Source of the DNA: Thermincola carboxydiphila
Lineage (GTDB): Bacteria > Bacillota > Thermincolia > Thermincolales > UBA2595
Length of the DNA: 64,000 bases
Reading direction: 5' to 3'
NCBI GenBank assembly: GCA_016841325.1
Contig: JAENZJ010000001.1
Location: forward strand, 124,001 to 188,000
Part shown: positions 17,725-34,408 of the stretch, one piece after another
Layout: each line of letters begins with the position of its first letter
Numbering within the stretch: the first letter of the stretch is position 1
Program-made: the position numbers and the translations under genes
The notes under the pieces: generated by a model
Seen by the model: only the letters and a program-made list of their open reading frames with translations
Database searches by the model: none
What the model was told of the DNA's origin: nothing

Positions 17725-19146
17725 ATGAATAAGATTAAGTTTGGAACAGATGGCTGGAGGGAAATAATTGCCAGGGAGTTTACCTTTGAGAATGTCAGGT
17801 TTGTATCCCAGGCCATAGCGGAATATGTGACCGGTCATGGTATGTCCGGGCGGGGTGTGGTTATCGGTTATGATAACAGGTTCCTGTCAGAACACTTTGC
17901 CCGGGCGGTTGCTGAAGTATTATGTGGCAACGGGGTCAGGGTCTGGATGACGGGCAGGGCCACACCAACTCCGGTGACTGCATTTGCGGTGAAACACCTT
18001 GGGGCAGCCGGTGCTGTCATGCTTACCGCGAGTCATAATCCCCCGGAATACAATGGGATAAAATTTATTCCTGAGTATGCGGGGCCGGCTATGCCATATA
18101 TCACTGACGAGATTGAAGGGCACCTGAACAGGGTTACCGGGGAAGGGAAGTTTACGGTGATACCTTATGATACGGCAGTCGAACAGGGGCTTGTTGCCGA
18201 CATCGACCCATTTGATGACTACATTAAGCACCTGAAGACAGTAGTTGACCTGGAAGCCATTGGCCGGGCCGGCCTTAAAGTAATAGTTGACCCTATGTAT
18301 GGAGCCGGGATAGGGTACCTTTCCCGGGTTCTTGAAGAGGCCGGCTGCCAGGTGGAGGTTATCCACGGGCACCGGGACCCGCTTTTTGGGGGGTCTATGC
18401 CTGAACCCTCTGCCAAAGTCCTCACTGAGCTCCGCGACCGCGTCGTTTCTTCCGGGGCCGACCTGGGGCTGGCCATGGACGGGGACGCTGACCGCTTCGG
18501 TATTATTGACAATGACGGGACATACATAATTGCTAACCAGGTACTCTATCTTTTATATTACCACCTGATTAATTTCCGCGGGCTGAAGGGACCGGTTGCA
18601 AGGTCTGTGGCCACTACCCATATGCTGGACCGGATTGCCGGTCGTTACGGTTTTGAAGTTGATGAGACCCCGGTTGGTTTCAAGTATATCGGTGAGTCCA
18701 TGATGAACAGGGGCAGCATTCTGGGCGGAGAGGAAAGCGGCGGGATGAGTATTGCCGGACACATACCGGAAAAAGACGGCATTTTGGCGGCTGCCCTGGT
18801 TGCCGAGCTGGTGGCTGTGGAAAAGCTCCCGGTACGCGAAATACTGCAAAACCTGGAACGTGAATTTGGTGTCCTTATCAGCCAGAGGCTGGATATCCGC
18901 ACAACCGAGGACAACAAAGAAAAAGTACTCACTAACCTGAAGGAACTGTCACCAGAGAATATTTCAGGGCTGGCGGTAACCCGGACTGTGGCAGTTGACG
19001 GGAAGAAATTTGTCCTGGAGGACGGCAGCTGGGTCCTGATCAGGGCTTCCGGGACAGAGCCGCTGTTTCGGATTTACGTGGAAACAGAAAATGAAGCCAG
19101 GATAAAGCAAATACAGTCAGCTACCAGGGAAATGCTGGGGCTGTGA
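17725..19146 (+). CDS. Phosphoglucomutase/phosphomannomutase family protein
   Basis: A 473-residue alpha-D-phosphohexomutase that interconverts hexose 6- and 1-phosphates. The phosphoserine loop TASHNPPEYNG places the catalytic Ser at residue 103; the metal loop DGDADR starts at about 252; the sugar-specificity loop GGEESGGMS is near 335; the phosphate-binding loop RASGTEPLFRIYVE is near the C terminus. A GEESGG-type loop is found in enzymes using glucose and/or mannose phosphates. It could feed the GDP-mannose step at 2392 or a UDP/dTDP-glucose step such as RfbA at 63600. ATG 17725 with GAGGGGG upstream is preferred to the overlapping TTG 17722. The terminator at 19149 begins just after the stop. 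Confidence 0.9.
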   Translation: MNKIKFGTDGWREIIAREFTFENVRFVSQAIAEYVTGHGMSGRGVVIGYDNRFLSEHFARAVAEVLCGNGVRVWMTGRATPTPVTAFAVKHLGAAGAVMLTASHNPPEYNGIKFIPEYAGPAMPYITDEIEGHLNRVTGEGKFTVIPYDTAVEQGLVADIDPFDDYIKHLKTVVDLEAIGRAGLKVIVDPMYGAGIGYLSRVLEEAGCQVEVIHGHRDPLFGGSMPEPSAKVLTELRDRVVSSGADLGLAMDGDADRFGIIDNDGTYIIANQVLYLLYYHLINFRGLKGPVARSVATTHMLDRIAGRYGFEVDETPVGFKYIGESMMNRGSILGGEESGGMSIAGHIPEKDGILAAALVAELVAVEKLPVREILQNLEREFGVLISQRLDIRTTEDNKEKVLTNLKELSPENISGLAVTRTVAVDGKKFVLEDGSWVLIRASGTEPLFRIYVETENEARIKQIQSATREMLGL

Positions 19147-19148
19147 TG

Positions 19149-19180
19149 AAAGAGGGGCCATATGGCTCCTCTTTATTGTT
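19149..19180 (+). terminator. Intrinsic terminator after the phosphohexomutase gene
   Basis: AAAGAGGGGCC (19149-19159) pairs with GGCTCCTCTTT (19164-19174) around ATAT with a single G-U pair; TTTATTGTTT follows. It starts two bases after the stop codon. Confidence 0.85.
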
Positions 19181-19274
19181 TAGAGCATGTCTTTGCAGGT
19201 TTAATAATGGCAGCAGCTTCCTTTTTGCAGGATTTTATAAAAATATATCGAATTTTGTTCCAGGGAGGTATATT

Positions 19275-20438
19275 ATGACTAACGTGGACGGCAATGGAAG
19301 CTCTGCAGAATTGACAGCTCTGGATACTGTGATAAAAGAGACCATGAGGACCCTGGGTGCGGGCAGGGAACAGCTATTTGCGGTAGCTGAAAATGCCCGC
19401 AGTGAATGTTCCCGGATTAAGAAAAGCATCGCCGAAACTGATAGTCAGTTGGAAGCCATTAATTCGGAACTGGCAGCAACCCAGAAAGAGGAAGAAATTG
19501 TCCAGGCACGGGTGGCCCAGGTAACAGGCGCTTTTGAGAGGCATTCTGAGGCAGAAATTAAGGCTGCTTATGAGGAAGTCAGGGAACTGCAGGTCAGGCT
19601 GACCCTGCTGAAGGAGCGACGGGAACAATTGCTGCGCAAAAGAGAGGATTTTGAAACCAGCAGACTGAACCTCCAGGAGACGGCGGAAAAAGCTGAAAAC
19701 ATGGTTTCACAGGTCGGAGTTGTCATGGACTTCATTGGGGGAAACCTCAGGGACATCAATGTGAAATTGGAAAGCCTGCAGCAGAGGCAGCAGATGGGCC
19801 TGCAGATTGTAAAAGCCCAAGAGGAAGAGAGGAAGCGGGTTGCCAGGGAAATTCATGACGGTCCTGCCCAGTCTATGGCTAATGTTGTCCTCAGGATGGA
19901 GTTTTGTGAAAAGCTGATGGAAGTGGAGCCTGCCAAAGTGAGTCAGGAATTAAAAGAGCTGAAGGATATTGTGCGCAGCAACCTCCAGGATATGCGGAAA
20001 ATAATTTTTGACCTGCGCCCGATGGCTCTTGATGACCTGGGTGTGGTCCCTGCGCTTAAAAGATATATTGAAGATTTTCGTGAAAAAAACGATATAGATA
20101 TTGAGATACAGTTTTTCGGGAAAGAGGCCAGGCTGGAACCCGTTCTGGAAATTGCGCTGTTCCGGCTGGTTCAGGAGGCTTTAAACAATGTCGTTAAACA
20201 CGCCCATGCCAAAAAAGTTAAGGTTGTTATGGAATTAAAGGATGACCAGGTAAGGGCATTTGTTGAGGATGACGGGATAGGTTTTGACCTGGATGATTAC
20301 TATGCCAATCAGAAGGGAAACAATTTCGGACTGGTCAGTATGAGAGAGAGAACTGACCTGCTCGGTGGGGAGATGAAAATCCAGACTAAACCTGGTAAGG
20401 GGACAAAAGTGTATTTTATAGTTCCGGTTGCCAGGTAG
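19275..20438 (+). CDS. DegS-like cytoplasmic sensor histidine kinase
   Basis: A 387-residue histidine kinase of the NarL/DegS (HisKA_3) type. It lacks a transmembrane segment; residues about 30-180 are a long coiled coil (ESQLEAIN-like heptads, Glu/Lys/Arg-rich) as in DegS. The phosphoacceptor His194 lies in EERKRVAREIHDGPAQSMAN, and the ATPase domain has VQEALNNVVKHAHAKKV (N box), DDGIGFDLDD (G1) and GLVSMRERTDLLGG (G2). It would phosphorylate the response regulator encoded 11 bp downstream. ATG 19275 follows GGGAGG; the upstream in-frame extension crosses the terminator region and is rejected. In Bacillus DegS/DegU steer motility, competence and exoenzyme choices, which fits this neighbourhood. 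Confidence 0.9.
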   Translation: MTNVDGNGSSAELTALDTVIKETMRTLGAGREQLFAVAENARSECSRIKKSIAETDSQLEAINSELAATQKEEEIVQARVAQVTGAFERHSEAEIKAAYEEVRELQVRLTLLKERREQLLRKREDFETSRLNLQETAEKAENMVSQVGVVMDFIGGNLRDINVKLESLQQRQQMGLQIVKAQEEERKRVAREIHDGPAQSMANVVLRMEFCEKLMEVEPAKVSQELKELKDIVRSNLQDMRKIIFDLRPMALDDLGVVPALKRYIEDFREKNDIDIEIQFFGKEARLEPVLEIALFRLVQEALNNVVKHAHAKKVKVVMELKDDQVRAFVEDDGIGFDLDDYYANQKGNNFGLVSMRERTDLLGGEMKIQTKPGKGTKVYFIVPVAR

Positions 20439-20449
20439 GAGGAGGCTGT

Positions 20450-21142
20450 ATGGACCGGATAAGGGTATTGATTGCTGATGACCATCCGCTAATCCGCCAG
20501 GGACTTGTTAGGGTAATCAGGCTTGACCCGTTACTGGATGTTGTCGGTGAGGCTGCAGACGGTAAAGAGGTCATTGAGAAAGCGGAACAATTACATCCTC
20601 ATATTATCATCATGGACCTGAACATGCCCAGGATGGATGGTCTGCAGGCTACAAGGCAGATCAAACAAAGGTTCCCGGATATCAGGGTCATAGCCCTTAC
20701 GGTTGAAGACAGTGAGCAAAGGGTAATCGAGGTTATCCGGGCGGGAGTCAGTGGTTATATACTAAAGGATGTTGATCCTGATGCCTTGGCCTCAACAATA
20801 AAGGCAGTTTATGCAGGGGAGATGGTGATCCATCCGCGAATTACGGCAATGCTCTGCAGGGAAATGGAACAGGACGGGGAACGGGGCGGCAATCATGACC
20901 AACAGTGCAGTTGTGTTTCCCGGCCTCCCGGGGAGACCCTGAATACCGGCCTTACTCCGAGAGAAGTGCAGATATTGAAATACATGGCCAGCGGCGTTCA
21001 TAATAAGGATATTGCCAGGATGCTTTATATCAGTGAGAAAACAGTAAAAAACCATATTACAAACATCTTCAGGAAACTGGATGTCGAAGACAGGACCCAG
21101 GCGGTAATATCAGCTGTTAAATTAAAACTGGTTAATCTTTAG
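20450..21142 (+). CDS. DegU-like NarL/FixJ response regulator
   Basis: A 230-residue two-domain regulator. The receiver domain (about 1-120) has the acidic pair in IADDHPL, the phosphoacceptor Asp56 in IIMDLNMPRMDG, and Lys in the GYILKDVDPD block. A LuxR-type DNA-binding domain (about 165-228) contains LTPREVQILKYMASGVHNKDIA and ISEKTVKNHITNIFRKL. The linker (about 140-162) is unusual in carrying two Cys and several His/Gln residues (HDQQCSCVS). The start ATG 20450 follows AGGAGGCTGT. It lies directly upstream of the Tad pilus locus, so it may control it; that is inference from position. Confidence 0.92.
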   Translation: MDRIRVLIADDHPLIRQGLVRVIRLDPLLDVVGEAADGKEVIEKAEQLHPHIIIMDLNMPRMDGLQATRQIKQRFPDIRVIALTVEDSEQRVIEVIRAGVSGYILKDVDPDALASTIKAVYAGEMVIHPRITAMLCREMEQDGERGGNHDQQCSCVSRPPGETLNTGLTPREVQILKYMASGVHNKDIARMLYISEKTVKNHITNIFRKLDVEDRTQAVISAVKLKLVNL

Positions 21143-21170: not shown

Positions 21171-21199
21171 TAGACAAGGCTGGTAAAATATTGTATTAT
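21171..21199 (+). promoter_or_regulatory. Predicted sigma-A promoter driving the first riboswitch
   Basis: TAGACA (21171-21176) and TATTAT (21194-21199) with a 17-bp spacer, each one base off consensus. Transcription from about 21206 would enter the GEMM element about 40 nt later. Confidence 0.6.
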
Positions 21200-21242
21200 A
21201 AAATTACGATATTGTGCAAATTAATAATGACTTCTCTGTCGA

Positions 21243-21322
21243 AAATAGCAAAACCGCCGAAAGGCGGTGACGCAAAGCTATGGGTCTAAGGTGTCGGTCA
21301 CTATGATTGCCAAGCTGCCGAA
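21243..21322 (+). promoter_or_regulatory. GEMM-I cyclic-dinucleotide riboswitch 1 (A at the specificity position)
   Basis: The GEMM-I (c-di-GMP-I) core is clear: GCAAAACC, a GCC-GAAA-GGC tetraloop hairpin, GGTGACGCAAAGC, GGGTCTAAGG, and a 3' half ending in GCCAAGCTGCCG. The base just 5' of GCAAA, which by my alignment to the Vc2 aptamer is position 20, is A (21247). Position 20 is G in c-di-GMP-specific members and A in the GEMM-Ib class that prefers 3',3'-cGAMP (known from Geobacter). Ligand preference is therefore a hypothesis. An intrinsic terminator follows at 21345, so it probably acts by transcription attenuation on the gene at 21519 and perhaps on the genes beyond. Confidence 0.88.
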
Positions 21323-21344
21323 AAAGAGTCAGGGGTATAGTATA

Positions 21345-21386
21345 CCTTTCTCTTAACTGCAGTTTGGAGAAAGGTTTTTGTTCTTT
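21345..21386 (+). terminator. Intrinsic terminator of riboswitch 1
   Basis: CCTTTCTC (21345-21352) pairs with GAGAAAGG (21367-21374), followed by TTTTTGTTCTTT. Upstream AAAGAG (21322-21327) can compete for the CTCTT part, a possible antiterminator. Confidence 0.85.
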
Positions 21387-21475
21387 CCACTGCCATTAAT
21401 GGTGCGGTTACCAAAAAAGAATAAGGGGGACGCCCCTGTTTCTCACTTGTCCGATTAGCGGCAGAGGCTGTTCTT

Positions 21476-21506
21476 TCATAAGATGGTGTAAGGAATAATC
21501 TTATGA
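21476..21506 (+). promoter_or_regulatory. 9-bp inverted repeat touching the ribosome-binding site of gene 21519
   Basis: TCATAAGAT (21476-21484) and ATCTTATGA (21498-21506) are perfect inverted repeats around 13 bases. The right arm overlaps the first bases of the Shine-Dalgarno GAGAGGTG. It may be a translational hairpin or a protein operator. The rest of the 376-bp gap (21143-21518) holds the promoter, riboswitch and terminator listed separately, plus a short AGGGG/CCCCT hairpin near 21425. Confidence 0.5.
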
Positions 21507-21518
21507 GAGGTGAAAGGA

Positions 21519-22049
21519 ATGTACCTTGGCTGGCTGATTGGAGCAACCGTACTGTTAATTGTTATATATTGTTTCACAATTTATACACGGACGGTGGTGA
21601 TGTGCAAAAAGTCAGGGAACAGGAAAGGTTTTCAAAAGACAAGTCTGGTTTTGACAGTCAGGAATCAGGAAGAGATTATCGAAGGCCTGATACGCGAAAT
21701 TTTTGCCTACGGCTATCTTATTCCACTTGAGGTTATGGTATTTGATTTTGGGTCTGTCGATAGGACCGGACTGATCCTGGAGCGGCTGGCAAGGGATTAC
21801 CCGGGTCTTAGGTTCTTTGCCTGCTGCGGAGAAGAAAACGGTATTCGCAAAAGAGTAATGGATTTGTGTCAGAGTGATGTTATTTATTGTTTCGATTTGA
21901 CGAGTTCGGTAAATTACAGTTTGATAATCAAAGCAGTGGAGTCGATACTGGGTGGTACTAAAATGAGCTTGTATAGGACCACAGTCCTACGCAAAAATAA
22001 GACCCAGGGTCGATGTACAGTCCCCAGAAATGTGCTAAAATTAAAATGA
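21519..22049 (+). CDS. Membrane-anchored GT2-like half-domain protein under riboswitch control
   Basis: About 176 residues: one N-terminal transmembrane segment (MYLGWLIGATVLLIVIYC, about 1-20), then a segment resembling the first half of a GT-A (family 2) glycosyltransferase. SLVLTVRNQEEIIEGLI and VMVFDFGSVDRTGLILERLA match the usual start and the DDGS-D-T nucleotide-binding block, with FDFGS in place of VDDGS. The chain ends soon after, before an acceptor-binding half, and no clear DxD metal motif is seen. It may be a degenerate or regulatory relative, not an active transferase. ATG 21519 is seven bases after AGAGGTG; GTG 21510 is the alternative. Riboswitches lie on both sides, which ties it to the Tad locus. 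Confidence 0.65.
   Translation: MYLGWLIGATVLLIVIYCFTIYTRTVVMCKKSGNRKGFQKTSLVLTVRNQEEIIEGLIREIFAYGYLIPLEVMVFDFGSVDRTGLILERLARDYPGLRFFACCGEENGIRKRVMDLCQSDVIYCFDLTSSVNYSLIIKAVESILGGTKMSLYRTTVLRKNKTQGRCTVPRNVLKLK
22014..22041 (+). promoter_or_regulatory. Possible weak promoter before riboswitch 2
   Basis: TGTACA (22014-22019) and TAAAAT (22036-22041, preceded by TGC as an extended -10) with a 16-bp spacer, inside the end of the preceding gene. Read-through from the upstream promoter is equally possible. Confidence 0.3.
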
Positions 22050-22065
22050 AAATGATACCTTCAGT

Positions 22066-22146
22066 GAAAAAGGCAAAGTCGTTGAAAGACGGCGGCGCAA
22101 AGCCATGGGTCTAAGGTGGCAACACTATGATCGCCAGGCTGCCAAA
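22066..22146 (+). promoter_or_regulatory. GEMM-I c-di-GMP riboswitch 2 (G at the specificity position)
   Basis: A second GEMM-I element: GGCAAAG, a GUCGUU-GAAA-GACGGC hairpin, GGCGCAAAGCC, GGGTCTAAGG and a 3' half ending in CGCCAGGCTGCC. Here the base before GCAAA is G (22072), as in c-di-GMP-specific riboswitches. It is followed by its own terminator at 22167 and then the Flp pilin gene, so c-di-GMP level should set pilin transcription. Whether ligand turns the gene on or off cannot be told from sequence alone. Confidence 0.9.
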
Positions 22147-22166: not shown

Positions 22167-22208
22167 AACCCTTCTCTAACGGGCAGTGTGGAGAAGGGTT
22201 TTATGTTT
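22167..22208 (+). terminator. Intrinsic terminator of riboswitch 2
   Basis: AACCCTTCTC (22167-22176) pairs with GAGAAGGGTT (22191-22200), followed by TTATGTTTT. Same layout as the terminator behind riboswitch 1. Confidence 0.8.
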
Positions 22209-22259: not shown

Positions 22260-22427
22260 ATGTTATCGATGATTAAAAGACTGTGGAGTGAAGAAAGAGG
22301 ACAAGGCATGACCGAGTATGGCCTGATTCTGGCGCTTATTGTAATCGGGGTTATAACTATTCTTGCAACTATGGGTGACACTCTGATCGAAAAGTTCACC
22401 GAAGTCAGTGATGGTCTTAATAAGTAA
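22260..22427 (+). CDS. flp: Flp-type pilin
   Basis: A 55-residue Flp/Fap pilin, the major subunit of Tad (type IVc) pili. A short basic leader (MLSMIKRLWSEERG) is followed by QGMTEYGLILALIVIGVI; the Gly before the cleavage site and the Glu-Tyr at mature positions 5-6 are the Flp hallmarks. The prepilin peptidase encoded at 22653 should remove the leader, and the Tad machinery encoded beyond assembles it. ATG 22260 follows GAAGGAGG; a longer in-frame ORF upstream runs into the terminator and is rejected. Expression appears gated by riboswitch 2 upstream. Confidence 0.93.
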   Translation: MLSMIKRLWSEERGQGMTEYGLILALIVIGVITILATMGDTLIEKFTEVSDGLNK

Positions 22428-22463: not shown

Positions 22464-22560
22464 CCGGGGCGGTGGATAATCCACTGCCCCATCCACTACT
22501 CAATGGTTGCGCAAAGCTGTGGGTCTATGTAAAATCTCACTGCAGACCGGCTTGCCGAAG
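22464..22560 (+). promoter_or_regulatory. Degenerate third GEMM-like element between flp and the prepilin peptidase gene
   Basis: The segment TTGCGCAAAGCTGTGGGTCTA (from about 22506) closely resembles the central core of riboswitches 1 and 2, and GGCTTGCCG (22549-22557) resembles their 3' end. The 5' GCAAA and the GAAA tetraloop hairpin are missing; instead a strong GGGGC...GCCCC hairpin (about 22466-22490) precedes it and may end flp mRNA. It looks like a decayed or altered copy. A good terminator follows at 22605. Confidence 0.5.
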
Positions 22561-22604
22561 ATGCAGTGGTCGTAAAGAAGATATGGTTACGTGTATTAAA
22601 AAAG

Positions 22605-31328: not shown

Positions 31329-31386
31329 GGCAGATTTGCAGGGATTAATGGGCTGGATGTCGAATATGGTAACAGGGGGTGTTACC

Positions 31387-33111
31387 ATGGCAGGGGCCAG
31401 AAAAGGTTTTTTGCACGGACTTTATGTATGGCTGGTTATCTTTTTGGGATATGGTATGCTTACTGCCATTCTGAAGGCAGAACCCCTGGATGTGGACCTC
31501 TGGAGAGAATACGCAGTATTGGTGGTTCTCGGGGTCCTGGCTGAATGGTTCGTAGTTTCCGTGCCCCAGGGAAGCCTCTCTCTGGGGTTTGCTGTTGTCT
31601 TTGTGTCCTTCATCAGGTTTGATGCCACCACAACAGTTCTGGTAAGTGTCCTTAGCGCTTTTATAGCCAACAGTATTTTCAGCAAAGACAGCTTTTTCCG
31701 GTCAACACTTTTTAACGGCGCCCAGTATACTATTTCCGCGGTGGCCGCATCGGCACTGTATTTTTATACAGGCGGACAGGTTGCTGATAAAATATCGGCT
31801 GCCAACTTTATCCCACTGGCGGTTTTCGTAATTACATATTTCTTTGTCAATCACTTCCTGGTGACCCTGTTCCTGTGGCCGTCCTTCCGGATGCAGAGGT
31901 GGTCTGTATGGAGATCGGCTCTGAAATGGGACTGTCTCACCTACATGTTTACAGCCCCCATCGGGATTCTGATGGCCCTGATCTATGAGAAGACAGGGAC
32001 CCTCGGAGCGGTACTGCTTTTCATTCCCCTGTTGACTTTAAAGTATCTGCTCAGGCTGTACATCAATCTGGAAACGGCCAATAAGGAGCTTTCTGCCCTT
32101 TATGAGGTAGCCAAAAACCTCGGCTCCAACCTGGAACTCTCCAAAACACTGGGCCTGATTCTTTCTGAGACCAAAAGGGTGGTTAATTACCATACAGGTA
32201 TTATTTACCTATGGGAGGAGGAGGAACGGCTGCTGGTCCCTGCGGCCATTAAGAGTCCCTTTGCCGAAAAGCTCCGGAGTATTACCTATTCTTTAGAAGA
32301 GGGCCTGATTGGACAGGCTGCCAAGACCGGTCAGCCGGAAATCGTCTATGACTCTAAAAGGGACAGCCGTATGAGGAGCATTCCGGGAATAAACCAGTTC
32401 CTCAGGTCATTGCTGATTATTCCCCTGTCAATGGATAATAAGCTGATAGGGGTAATTGCCATCGGGAAAAAGGAACCCTATGCCTTTGGGCAGAAACAGG
32501 TCCGCATATTAAGCAGCCTGGGTGGTCAGGCAGCAGTTGCCATGGCTAATGCGATGCTGTATAAAAAGATTGAAAAACTGGCTATTACCGATGGCCTTAC
32601 CAAGGTTTATAACCACAGGTACTTTTATAAGAAGATGGAAGAAGAAAGCGAGAGATACCGCAGGTATGGGACGGTTTTTTCCTTCATTATGCTTGACCTG
32701 GATTATTTCAAGAGATTTAATGACAAGTACGGCCACCGTGCCGGGGACCATGCCCTGTATACCGTAGCCCAGGTGATCAAAAAAAGCACGCGGATGCTTG
32801 ATGTGGTCAGCCGTTACGGGGGCGAAGAGTTTGCCGTGATTCTGCCGGAAACTGATGCCGCAGCCGCCAGGGTGGTTGCGGAACGAATCCTTCACGCTGT
32901 CCGGGATACATATTTTTCTGTTTCCGATGACCATCCTCCGGTACACATTACTGTAAGCATAGGTGTAGCCACCTGCCCGCAGGATGCCGAAAATATTAAT
33001 GACCTCATTGAAATGGCTGATAAGGCCCTTTATTACTCCAAAGAGACGGGCAAAAACAAGGTATCGGTCTGGTCTGAAGTACCTGTCAATGCCTTGGTTG
33101 ATAACGGCTGA
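31387..33111 (+). CDS. Membrane GAF-GGDEF diguanylate cyclase
   Basis: A 574-residue protein: an N-terminal region of about seven or eight transmembrane segments (residues 5-225), a GAF domain (about 250-395) and a GGDEF domain (about 405-565). The active-site loop is GGEEF at 478-482, preceded by an RMLD inhibitory site (RxxD five residues before it). FKRFNDKYGHRAGD retains the Asn and Asp that recognise guanine in PleD-like enzymes, so it should make c-di-GMP from two GTP under product inhibition. ATG 31387 after AGGGGGTG is preferred to upstream in-frame starts. It follows the Tad locus whose leaders are c-di-GMP riboswitches. Confidence 0.9.
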   Translation: MAGARKGFLHGLYVWLVIFLGYGMLTAILKAEPLDVDLWREYAVLVVLGVLAEWFVVSVPQGSLSLGFAVVFVSFIRFDATTTVLVSVLSAFIANSIFSKDSFFRSTLFNGAQYTISAVAASALYFYTGGQVADKISAANFIPLAVFVITYFFVNHFLVTLFLWPSFRMQRWSVWRSALKWDCLTYMFTAPIGILMALIYEKTGTLGAVLLFIPLLTLKYLLRLYINLETANKELSALYEVAKNLGSNLELSKTLGLILSETKRVVNYHTGIIYLWEEEERLLVPAAIKSPFAEKLRSITYSLEEGLIGQAAKTGQPEIVYDSKRDSRMRSIPGINQFLRSLLIIPLSMDNKLIGVIAIGKKEPYAFGQKQVRILSSLGGQAAVAMANAMLYKKIEKLAITDGLTKVYNHRYFYKKMEEESERYRRYGTVFSFIMLDLDYFKRFNDKYGHRAGDHALYTVAQVIKKSTRMLDVVSRYGGEEFAVILPETDAAAARVVAERILHAVRDTYFSVSDDHPPVHITVSIGVATCPQDAENINDLIEMADKALYYSKETGKNKVSVWSEVPVNALVDNG

Positions 33112-33243: not shown

Positions 33244-33280
33244 ACCTAGATAAATGCTTATTATGCAGGGGGAAGGGTTA

Positions 33281-34408
33281 ATGACCGGAGACAGCAATAC
33301 CAACAGGAATTTATGGATTATAACGGGTATAGCCAGTGTGCCTTTTGCCATCCTGGCTTTTAATGACCCGGGCCTGTTAAAGACTCCTTATATTTACTAC
33401 TTATTCGCTGTGGCAGTCATTTTTAACGGGTTTCTGGTTCCCTTTATATTGTTTAAGGAGGAACCCAACTGGCTGAAAAAGACTGTTGCGCTTGGCATCA
33501 ATATGGTAATAGCTGTATTGTGGATCGAATTTACCGGTGGAATACAGAGTATTTTTTACCCTAGCTTTTTTTTGCTGCCTGTCTTTGCGGCAACAATTTA
33601 CTGTGGCATGCTCGACGCGCTCCTGACCGCATTTTTTGGCAGCGCCCTGACACTGTTTTTCCGGTATAACCAGCTCGGGTCAGTCAAAGAGGCTTTGAGT
33701 GATGCAGCTGTCCTGGTAAACATAATTTTCTTTTTCCTCATTGCTGCTATTGTCGGTTATATCGTCAGAGTACTCCGGGAACAGCAGGCCAGCACCCTCC
33801 GGATAACCTCAGAGCTGGAAACGGCTTACCACCAGTTGTCATCTTCCCATGAGCAGCTCCAGAGTTATACGGACATTATTGAAAAGATGAATAAGGAAAT
33901 GGAGCAGCTGGCGGTTACGGATGAACTGACTATGCTGTATAACTACAGGTATTTCCAGATAGCCCTGGACAAGGAACTCAAAAAGAACAAGGCCGGCAGT
34001 GTCAGCCTGCTGATGCTGGATGTGGACCATTTCAAACAGTTTAATGAGTTACACGGACACCTGACGGGAAATAAACTGTTAACAGAGATAGCCCGGATAA
34101 TCAGGGAGAATGTCCGGGATACGGATGCCGTATTCCGGTATGGCGGAGAGGAATTTGCCGTGATATTCCCCGGGCTTGAGCCGCAGCAGGTGCTGGAGTC
34201 TGCAGAAAAAATCAGGAGGGTCATTGAAAACACAACTATCAAAACAGCGGCCGGCAAACAGGTAACGGTTACTGTCAGTGAGGGAATATCACATTATCCC
34301 GGTGATTCCAGGAATAAGAGTGAACTTATCAGCCATGCCGACTTGGCTCTGGCTGAAGCCAAACAGGGCGGACGGAATCAGGTCAGAATATTCGCCAATG
34401 GGCAATAA
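33281..34408 (+). CDS. Membrane GGDEF protein with Asn at the guanine-recognition position
   Basis: A 375-residue protein: about six transmembrane segments (residues 10-165), a coiled-coil signalling helix (about 165-205), and a GGDEF domain (about 210-370). GGEEF is at 288-292 with an RDTD inhibitory site before it, so catalysis looks intact. The conserved stretch reads FKQFNELHGHLTGN: the Asn of the ND pair is kept, the next Asp is Glu, and the Asp that contacts guanine in PleD (Asp344) is Asn264. The same position is Ser in the cGAMP-producing Hypr enzyme GacA of Geobacter. Altered nucleotide choice is thus possible but unproven. ATG 33281 follows GGGGGAAGGG. Confidence 0.88.
   Translation: MTGDSNTNRNLWIITGIASVPFAILAFNDPGLLKTPYIYYLFAVAVIFNGFLVPFILFKEEPNWLKKTVALGINMVIAVLWIEFTGGIQSIFYPSFFLLPVFAATIYCGMLDALLTAFFGSALTLFFRYNQLGSVKEALSDAAVLVNIIFFFLIAAIVGYIVRVLREQQASTLRITSELETAYHQLSSSHEQLQSYTDIIEKMNKEMEQLAVTDELTMLYNYRYFQIALDKELKKNKAGSVSLLMLDVDHFKQFNELHGHLTGNKLLTEIARIIRENVRDTDAVFRYGGEEFAVIFPGLEPQQVLESAEKIRRVIENTTIKTAAGKQVTVTVSEGISHYPGDSRNKSELISHADLALAEAKQGGRNQVRIFANGQ

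Follow-up and report, generated by a model that had tools for sequence, protein, structure and literature searches.

The stretch of DNA analysed here (the window, 64 kb) belongs to the genome of Thermincola carboxydiphila, which is available in 49 contigs and comprises 3.43 Mb. Thermincola are Gram-positive Fe(III)-reducers and a subject of work on extracellular electron transfer (PMC7911101). Within the window, two riboswitch aptamers are embedded in a Tad/Flp pilus locus, with a start-to-start distance of 825 bp. Upstream, as conserved neighbours, lie genes for a DegS-like histidine kinase and a LuxR-type response regulator (19143..21142, forward strand, like all genes, aptamers, promoter-like sites and terminators of the window given below; PF05384, PF07730, PF00072, PF00196). 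The first aptamer (element 1, 21237..21322) precedes a gene for a small membrane protein of 176 aa with a partial GT2-like domain (21519..22049), whose score of 21.3 bits against PF00535 falls below the cut-off of 23.3 bits; the protein is 88% identical within Thermincola and 45–50% identical to its counterparts from three further genera of this family. The second aptamer (element 2, 22062..22146) is located ahead of the flp pilin gene (Flp/Fap; 22260..22427; PF04964, 36.9 bits), which is the first gene of a full Tad operon. This arrangement agrees with the first-pass annotation, which had placed one element before a small GT2-like gene and the other before flp. Further downstream, two cyclase-like proteins are encoded: GGDEF1 (31384..33111), of MASE9-GAF-GGDEF architecture, with the motif GGEEF and Asp at the position of PleD D344, and GGDEF2 (33254..34408), a membrane GGDEF protein and candidate atypical cyclase with the motif GGEEF and Asn at the position of PleD D344 and GacA S348.

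A strong hairpin just 3' of flp (22466-22490), which is retained with a different sequence in genome G001, possibly stabilises the flp mRNA or separates flp from the remainder of the operon. Between flp and the prepilin peptidase gene sits a GEMM-like fragment (22501-22570; GCGCAAAGC...GGGTCTA...GGCTTGCCG); genome G005 carries a full GEMM element ahead of the same prepilin peptidase gene. As a third switch, the fragment was rejected: it has no Rfam match up to an E-value of 5, survives only in eroded form in G002, is missing from G001 and is at best a remnant.

Two GEMM-I aptamers that differ at position 20

A search of the window with cmscan and Rfam 15 returns exactly two RNA matches, both to the c-di-GMP-I/GEMM-I family (RF01051; typified by Vc2 and Cd1). 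Element 1 scores 83.3 bits (E = 6.5e-15) and element 2 scores 82.4 bits (E = 1.1e-14), well above the gathering score of 35 bits and over the full length of the model (positions 1-87). Each aptamer is followed by a U-tailed hairpin, resulting in the terminator expression platform that is also known from the family; terminator 1 (21344..21375, then TTTT) is almost invariant in three Thermincola species, and terminator 2 (22167..22200, then TTTTA) is conserved in all three. The promoter and terminator scan omits both hairpins, as it allows loops of no more than 8 and theirs are longer. The initial reading of two complete GEMM-I elements, each with its own terminator, is thereby borne out.

Position 11 of the RF01051 model is the unpaired base ahead of the G-C pair closing P2, and corresponds to nucleotide 20 of Vc2. 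In the alignment to the model, this position is A in element 1 (21247) and G in element 2 (22072), so that the bases singled out in the first-pass annotation are indeed position 20 and element 1 lacks a G there. In J1/2 of element 1, A20 is preceded by U (21246); U19-A20 thus replaces the A19-G20 usual for the family, which element 2 possesses.

With A at the ligand-contact base and a U-A step in J1/2, element 1 is similar to the GEMM-Ib switches of Geobacter (Gs1761, pilM). In the cGAMP aptamer Gs1761, U13-A14 is presumably the counterpart of U19-A20. The Gs1761 sequence used for this comparison agrees with 13 of the 14 numbered bases in PMC6274999, nucleotide 13 not being among the bases named there. 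Pilus gene context and an exoelectrogenic host are further likenesses. Differences concern the Gram-positive host, a genome devoid of Hypr GGDEF domains and the base of P2, which closes with G21248-C21273 in element 1 instead of the non-G-C type of pair seen in Geobacter, i.e., C15-G40 in Gs1761 (PMC6274999) and U15-G38 in the pilM switch (PMC9262584).

Transcription termination and its predicted direction

Both GEMM-I switches would control the Tad/Flp pilus locus via transcription termination. The 3' strand of aptamer 1 (CCAAGCTGC, 21310..21318) is a 9-bp complement of GCAGTTTGG (21359..21367), which spans the loop and 3' arm of terminator 1, and in the lowest-energy fold without ligand these stretches form nine pairs that hide the 5' arm of the terminator. 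In free-energy folding across the three species, the probability of the terminator is 0.01-0.21 for the free RNA and 0.95-0.97 with the aptamer enforced. From this folding, the layout of element 1 is predicted to be that of an OFF switch: in the absence of ligand, the aptamer 3' strand would pair with the terminator loop, yielding an antiterminator and read-through, while upon ligand binding, the aptamer would capture its 3' strand, the terminator would form and transcription would stop. This predicted antiterminator logic resembles that of the OFF switch Cd1, in contrast to the Geobacter cGAMP switches, which are ON switches (PMC9262584). For element 2, folding gives an OFF switch in the T. 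carboxydiphila genome only, the terminator being favoured either way in the other two Thermincola species; equilibrium folding of elements from other genera yields mixed switching directions.

Upstream of element 1, a promoter-like site (TAGACA-17-TATTAT, 21171..21199) is present as a consensus match of 10/12; its spacing is identical in the three Thermincola genomes, with a slightly variable first hexamer, and over the whole region five such sites compare with 3.0 expected. A further promoter-like site with a TG before the -10 hexamer (22014..22041) lies inside the GT2-like gene, at its 3' end, and the hexamers of the site are kept in the three species. Because this conserved site precedes element 2, each switch may work on its own, and an AND gate in which one transcript passes element 1 and then element 2 is, in view of the same site, unsupported.

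Conservation in the genus and recurrence of U19-A20 in the phylum

In all three Thermincola genomes compared, the first element has A20 and the second has G20, at equal spacing; the orthologues of element 1 (L062:3004-3089 and L063:2824-2909) both contain U19-A20 and those of element 2 contain G20. The flanks diverge among these genomes, while aptamers and terminators change hardly at all. The difference between A20 and G20 is therefore confirmed as real and not a chance change. In other genera of the family (G003, G004 and G005), the first-element orthologues have A19-G20, so that two adjacent bases distinguish element 1, A19G20 having changed to U19A20, and they precede an flp gene. In Thermincola, element 1 is followed directly by the GT2-like gene, with no flp in between; an flp gene once next to element 1 may have been lost.

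The T. carboxydiphila genome contains 16 GEMM-I elements (L001 to L016), of which element 1 is the only one with A20. Among others, these elements precede genes for chemoreceptors and for HD-GYP, S-layer-like, transglutaminase-like, HU-like and signal peptidase proteins; the CxxCH haem motif occurs in none of the nearest ORFs downstream of the 16.

The first-pass annotation regarded A20 GEMM-I elements as mainly a Geobacter feature. This did not hold up: the A20 pattern gives 72 matches in 47 of 398 genomes of this Gram-positive phylum, in which G20 elements occur in 257 genomes. U19-A20 accounts for 41 of the 72 matches, distributed over 28 genomes and 17 families (families counted by hand). 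In 81 distinct GEMM-I sequences, U19 accompanies A20 in 18 of 26 cases and G20 in 3 of 55 (Fisher p=3e-9, a value that overstates independence, given that the counts include related sequences, with 17 families represented nonetheless). The recurrence of this coupling, together with U13-A14 at the corresponding place of the Gs1761 aptamer, argues that A20 in element 1 probably belongs to a motif under selection and is not a single stray change.

Position 20 also toggles elsewhere. Tandem GEMM-I elements before a transglutaminase-like gene have A19G20 in T. carboxydiphila (L009, L011) and U19A20 in G003, G007 and G008 (L068, L072, L073), with downstream proteins that are 50-54% identical. Mixed A20/G20 tandems before transglutaminase-like genes are likewise found in G358 and G293 (L161, L162), from two other families. 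In an Anaerolineales MAG of the Chloroflexota (JAICRQ010000212.1; L079:3547-3813), three GEMM-I-like elements in close tandem all have A at position 20, and two of the three exceed the Rfam gathering score.

Ligand reading and the search for a cGAMP source

Position 20 is a selectivity factor and no hard filter (PMC9262584), and cGAMP riboswitches bind c-di-GMP via a protonated adenine (cited in PMC9262584). A mixed G20/A20 GEMM-I locus is a kind already published: in a 7-kb locus of Desulfobacca acetoxidans, three G-type elements and one A-type element are found, and in-line probing of the A-type showed markedly better binding of c-AMP-GMP and perhaps slightly weaker binding of c-di-GMP (PMC9481103). 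While AdoCbl riboswitches join that cluster as logic gates, the Thermincola locus comprises two GEMM-I elements with one gene between them in a Tad context. As to the suggestion that A20 marks a GEMM-Ib switch preferring cGAMP, the conservation of A20 in the genus and its coupling to U19, as in the Gs1761 sequence, speak for it; the notion of a strict specificity determinant is lost. Separate reading of the two dinucleotides in vitro appears unlikely, because the A-type aptamer of Desulfobacca binds c-di-GMP nearly as well (PMC9481103). From that aptamer, the selectivity-factor role of position 20 and the G-C base of P2, element 1 is expected to be a dual-binding A20 variant.

With moderate confidence, we thus read the locus as two GEMM-I termination switches, element 2 ahead of flp being an ordinary c-di-GMP-I switch and element 1 a dual-binding A20 variant, predicted to act as an OFF switch, in which a cGAMP-type J1/2 would be set on a c-di-GMP-type P2 base. 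Element 1 would most likely exceed element 2 in 3',3'-cGAMP binding and would retain c-di-GMP binding; in the cell, c-di-GMP with a shifted affinity, or either dinucleotide, would be a likelier ligand than cGAMP alone. It speaks against this reading that, if c-di-GMP is read by both elements, the conserved U19-A20 is left without an obvious reason.

Separate inputs in vivo, with 3',3'-cGAMP for element 1 and c-di-GMP for element 2, would involve an unrecognised synthase such as GGDEF2, and we regard this alternative as rather unlikely. In the original suggestion that one locus reads two cyclic dinucleotides separately, the base is position 20 and A20 is genus-wide, as proposed; the suggestion is weakened by the c-di-GMP binding kept in the Desulfobacca A-type (PMC9481103) and by the lack of Hypr and SMODS enzymes. 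The coupling of the conserved A20 to U19 is in its favour, as is the physiology of Thermincola, exoelectrogens of the kind in which, for Geobacter, cGAMP controls that very trait (PMC6456294). With regard to a source of cGAMP, the specificity residue (PleD D344/GacA S348) was read in all 16 GGDEF domains of the T. carboxydiphila genome. Ser or Thr at this position, the mark of Hypr GGDEF enzymes (PMC6456294), occurs in none of the 16; the residue is Asp in 15 and Asn in one, GGDEF2 (codon 34070-34072), whose gene is located about 12 kb downstream of the riboswitch pair. SMODS-type CD-NTases (PF18144, DncV type) have no match in this genome or in the class.

GGDEF2 thus shares its locus with the A20 element, and its Asn is present in all three Thermincola genomes (orthologues in L062 and L063) and in G009. 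Its best PDB match is the Hypr enzyme GacA (6D9M, 123.8 bits, the next being 109.2), with the Asn aligned to Ser348. This closeness was rejected as a sign of cGAMP synthesis, an ordinary Asp GGDEF domain of the same genome reaching 139.1 bits against 6D9M as its second match after PleD. Moreover, GGDEF2 has Asn where Hypr enzymes need Ser or Thr and GGEEF where they need GGDE[F/Y]; natural Ser/Thr enzymes carry GGDE[F/Y] only, and the Ser/GGEEF combination is inactive (PMC6456294). Domains with Asn or Lys at position 344, for which we found no description of function, occur in about 54 of the 398 phylum genomes (pattern scan), and the co-occurrence of A20 with non-Asp GGDEF domains indicates no association (9 shared genomes, p=0.27; the survey used a strict DNA pattern that misses divergent domains). 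GGDDF proteins of the class recall GSU1937, a Hypr enzyme of Geobacter with Ser at the specificity position (PMC8835794), but were rejected as Hypr enzymes on account of Asp at that position.

Genome G003 (99% complete) also weighs against separate inputs: it contains U19-A20 elements and Asp in 17 of 17 GGDEF domains, which means that A20 elements exist without a recognised cGAMP synthase. Such elements either read c-di-GMP or are served by a synthase of an unrecognised type. The broadest version of the latter, in which U19-A20 GEMM-I elements would form a recurrent cGAMP-reading subclass in the phylum, supplied by synthases that are neither Hypr nor CD-NTase, with the Thermincola Asn344 GGDEF feeding element 1, is a long shot.

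Neutral drift, in which A20 is tolerated and c-di-GMP is read alike by both elements, we consider improbable: in Cd1 of C. difficile, c-di-GMP binding is not greatly affected when A or C replaces G11 (equivalent to G20; PMC9262584), position 20 varies between orthologous transglutaminase-like loci and no cGAMP synthase was found in the genome, but A20 is retained in three species despite diverging flanks, the U19 coupling recurs in 17 families and the Desulfobacca A variant has a different affinity profile (PMC9481103).

For the preferred reading of a dual-binding element 1 beside an ordinary c-di-GMP-I switch, what is new in comparison with the published mixed locus is the Gram-positive exoelectrogenic host, the coupled U19-A20 motif and the absence of a recognised synthase. 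As natural sister aptamers 825 bp apart, one of them with the coupled U19-A20, the two elements offer a clean test pair. Should element 1 bind cGAMP, the Asn344 GGDEF protein would become a direct synthase candidate, given that known synthases are absent. cGAMP riboswitches are known mainly from Geobacter and its relatives, in which extracellular electron transfer is under their control. If the U19-A20 subclass with an Asn344 GGDEF synthase proved true, exoelectrogens of a second lineage, unrelated to the first, would be tied to cGAMP. The conserved A20 in the Thermincola pilus locus would either extend cGAMP signalling or show that A20 alone does not signify cGAMP, and either outcome bears on the interpretation of many GEMM-I annotations.
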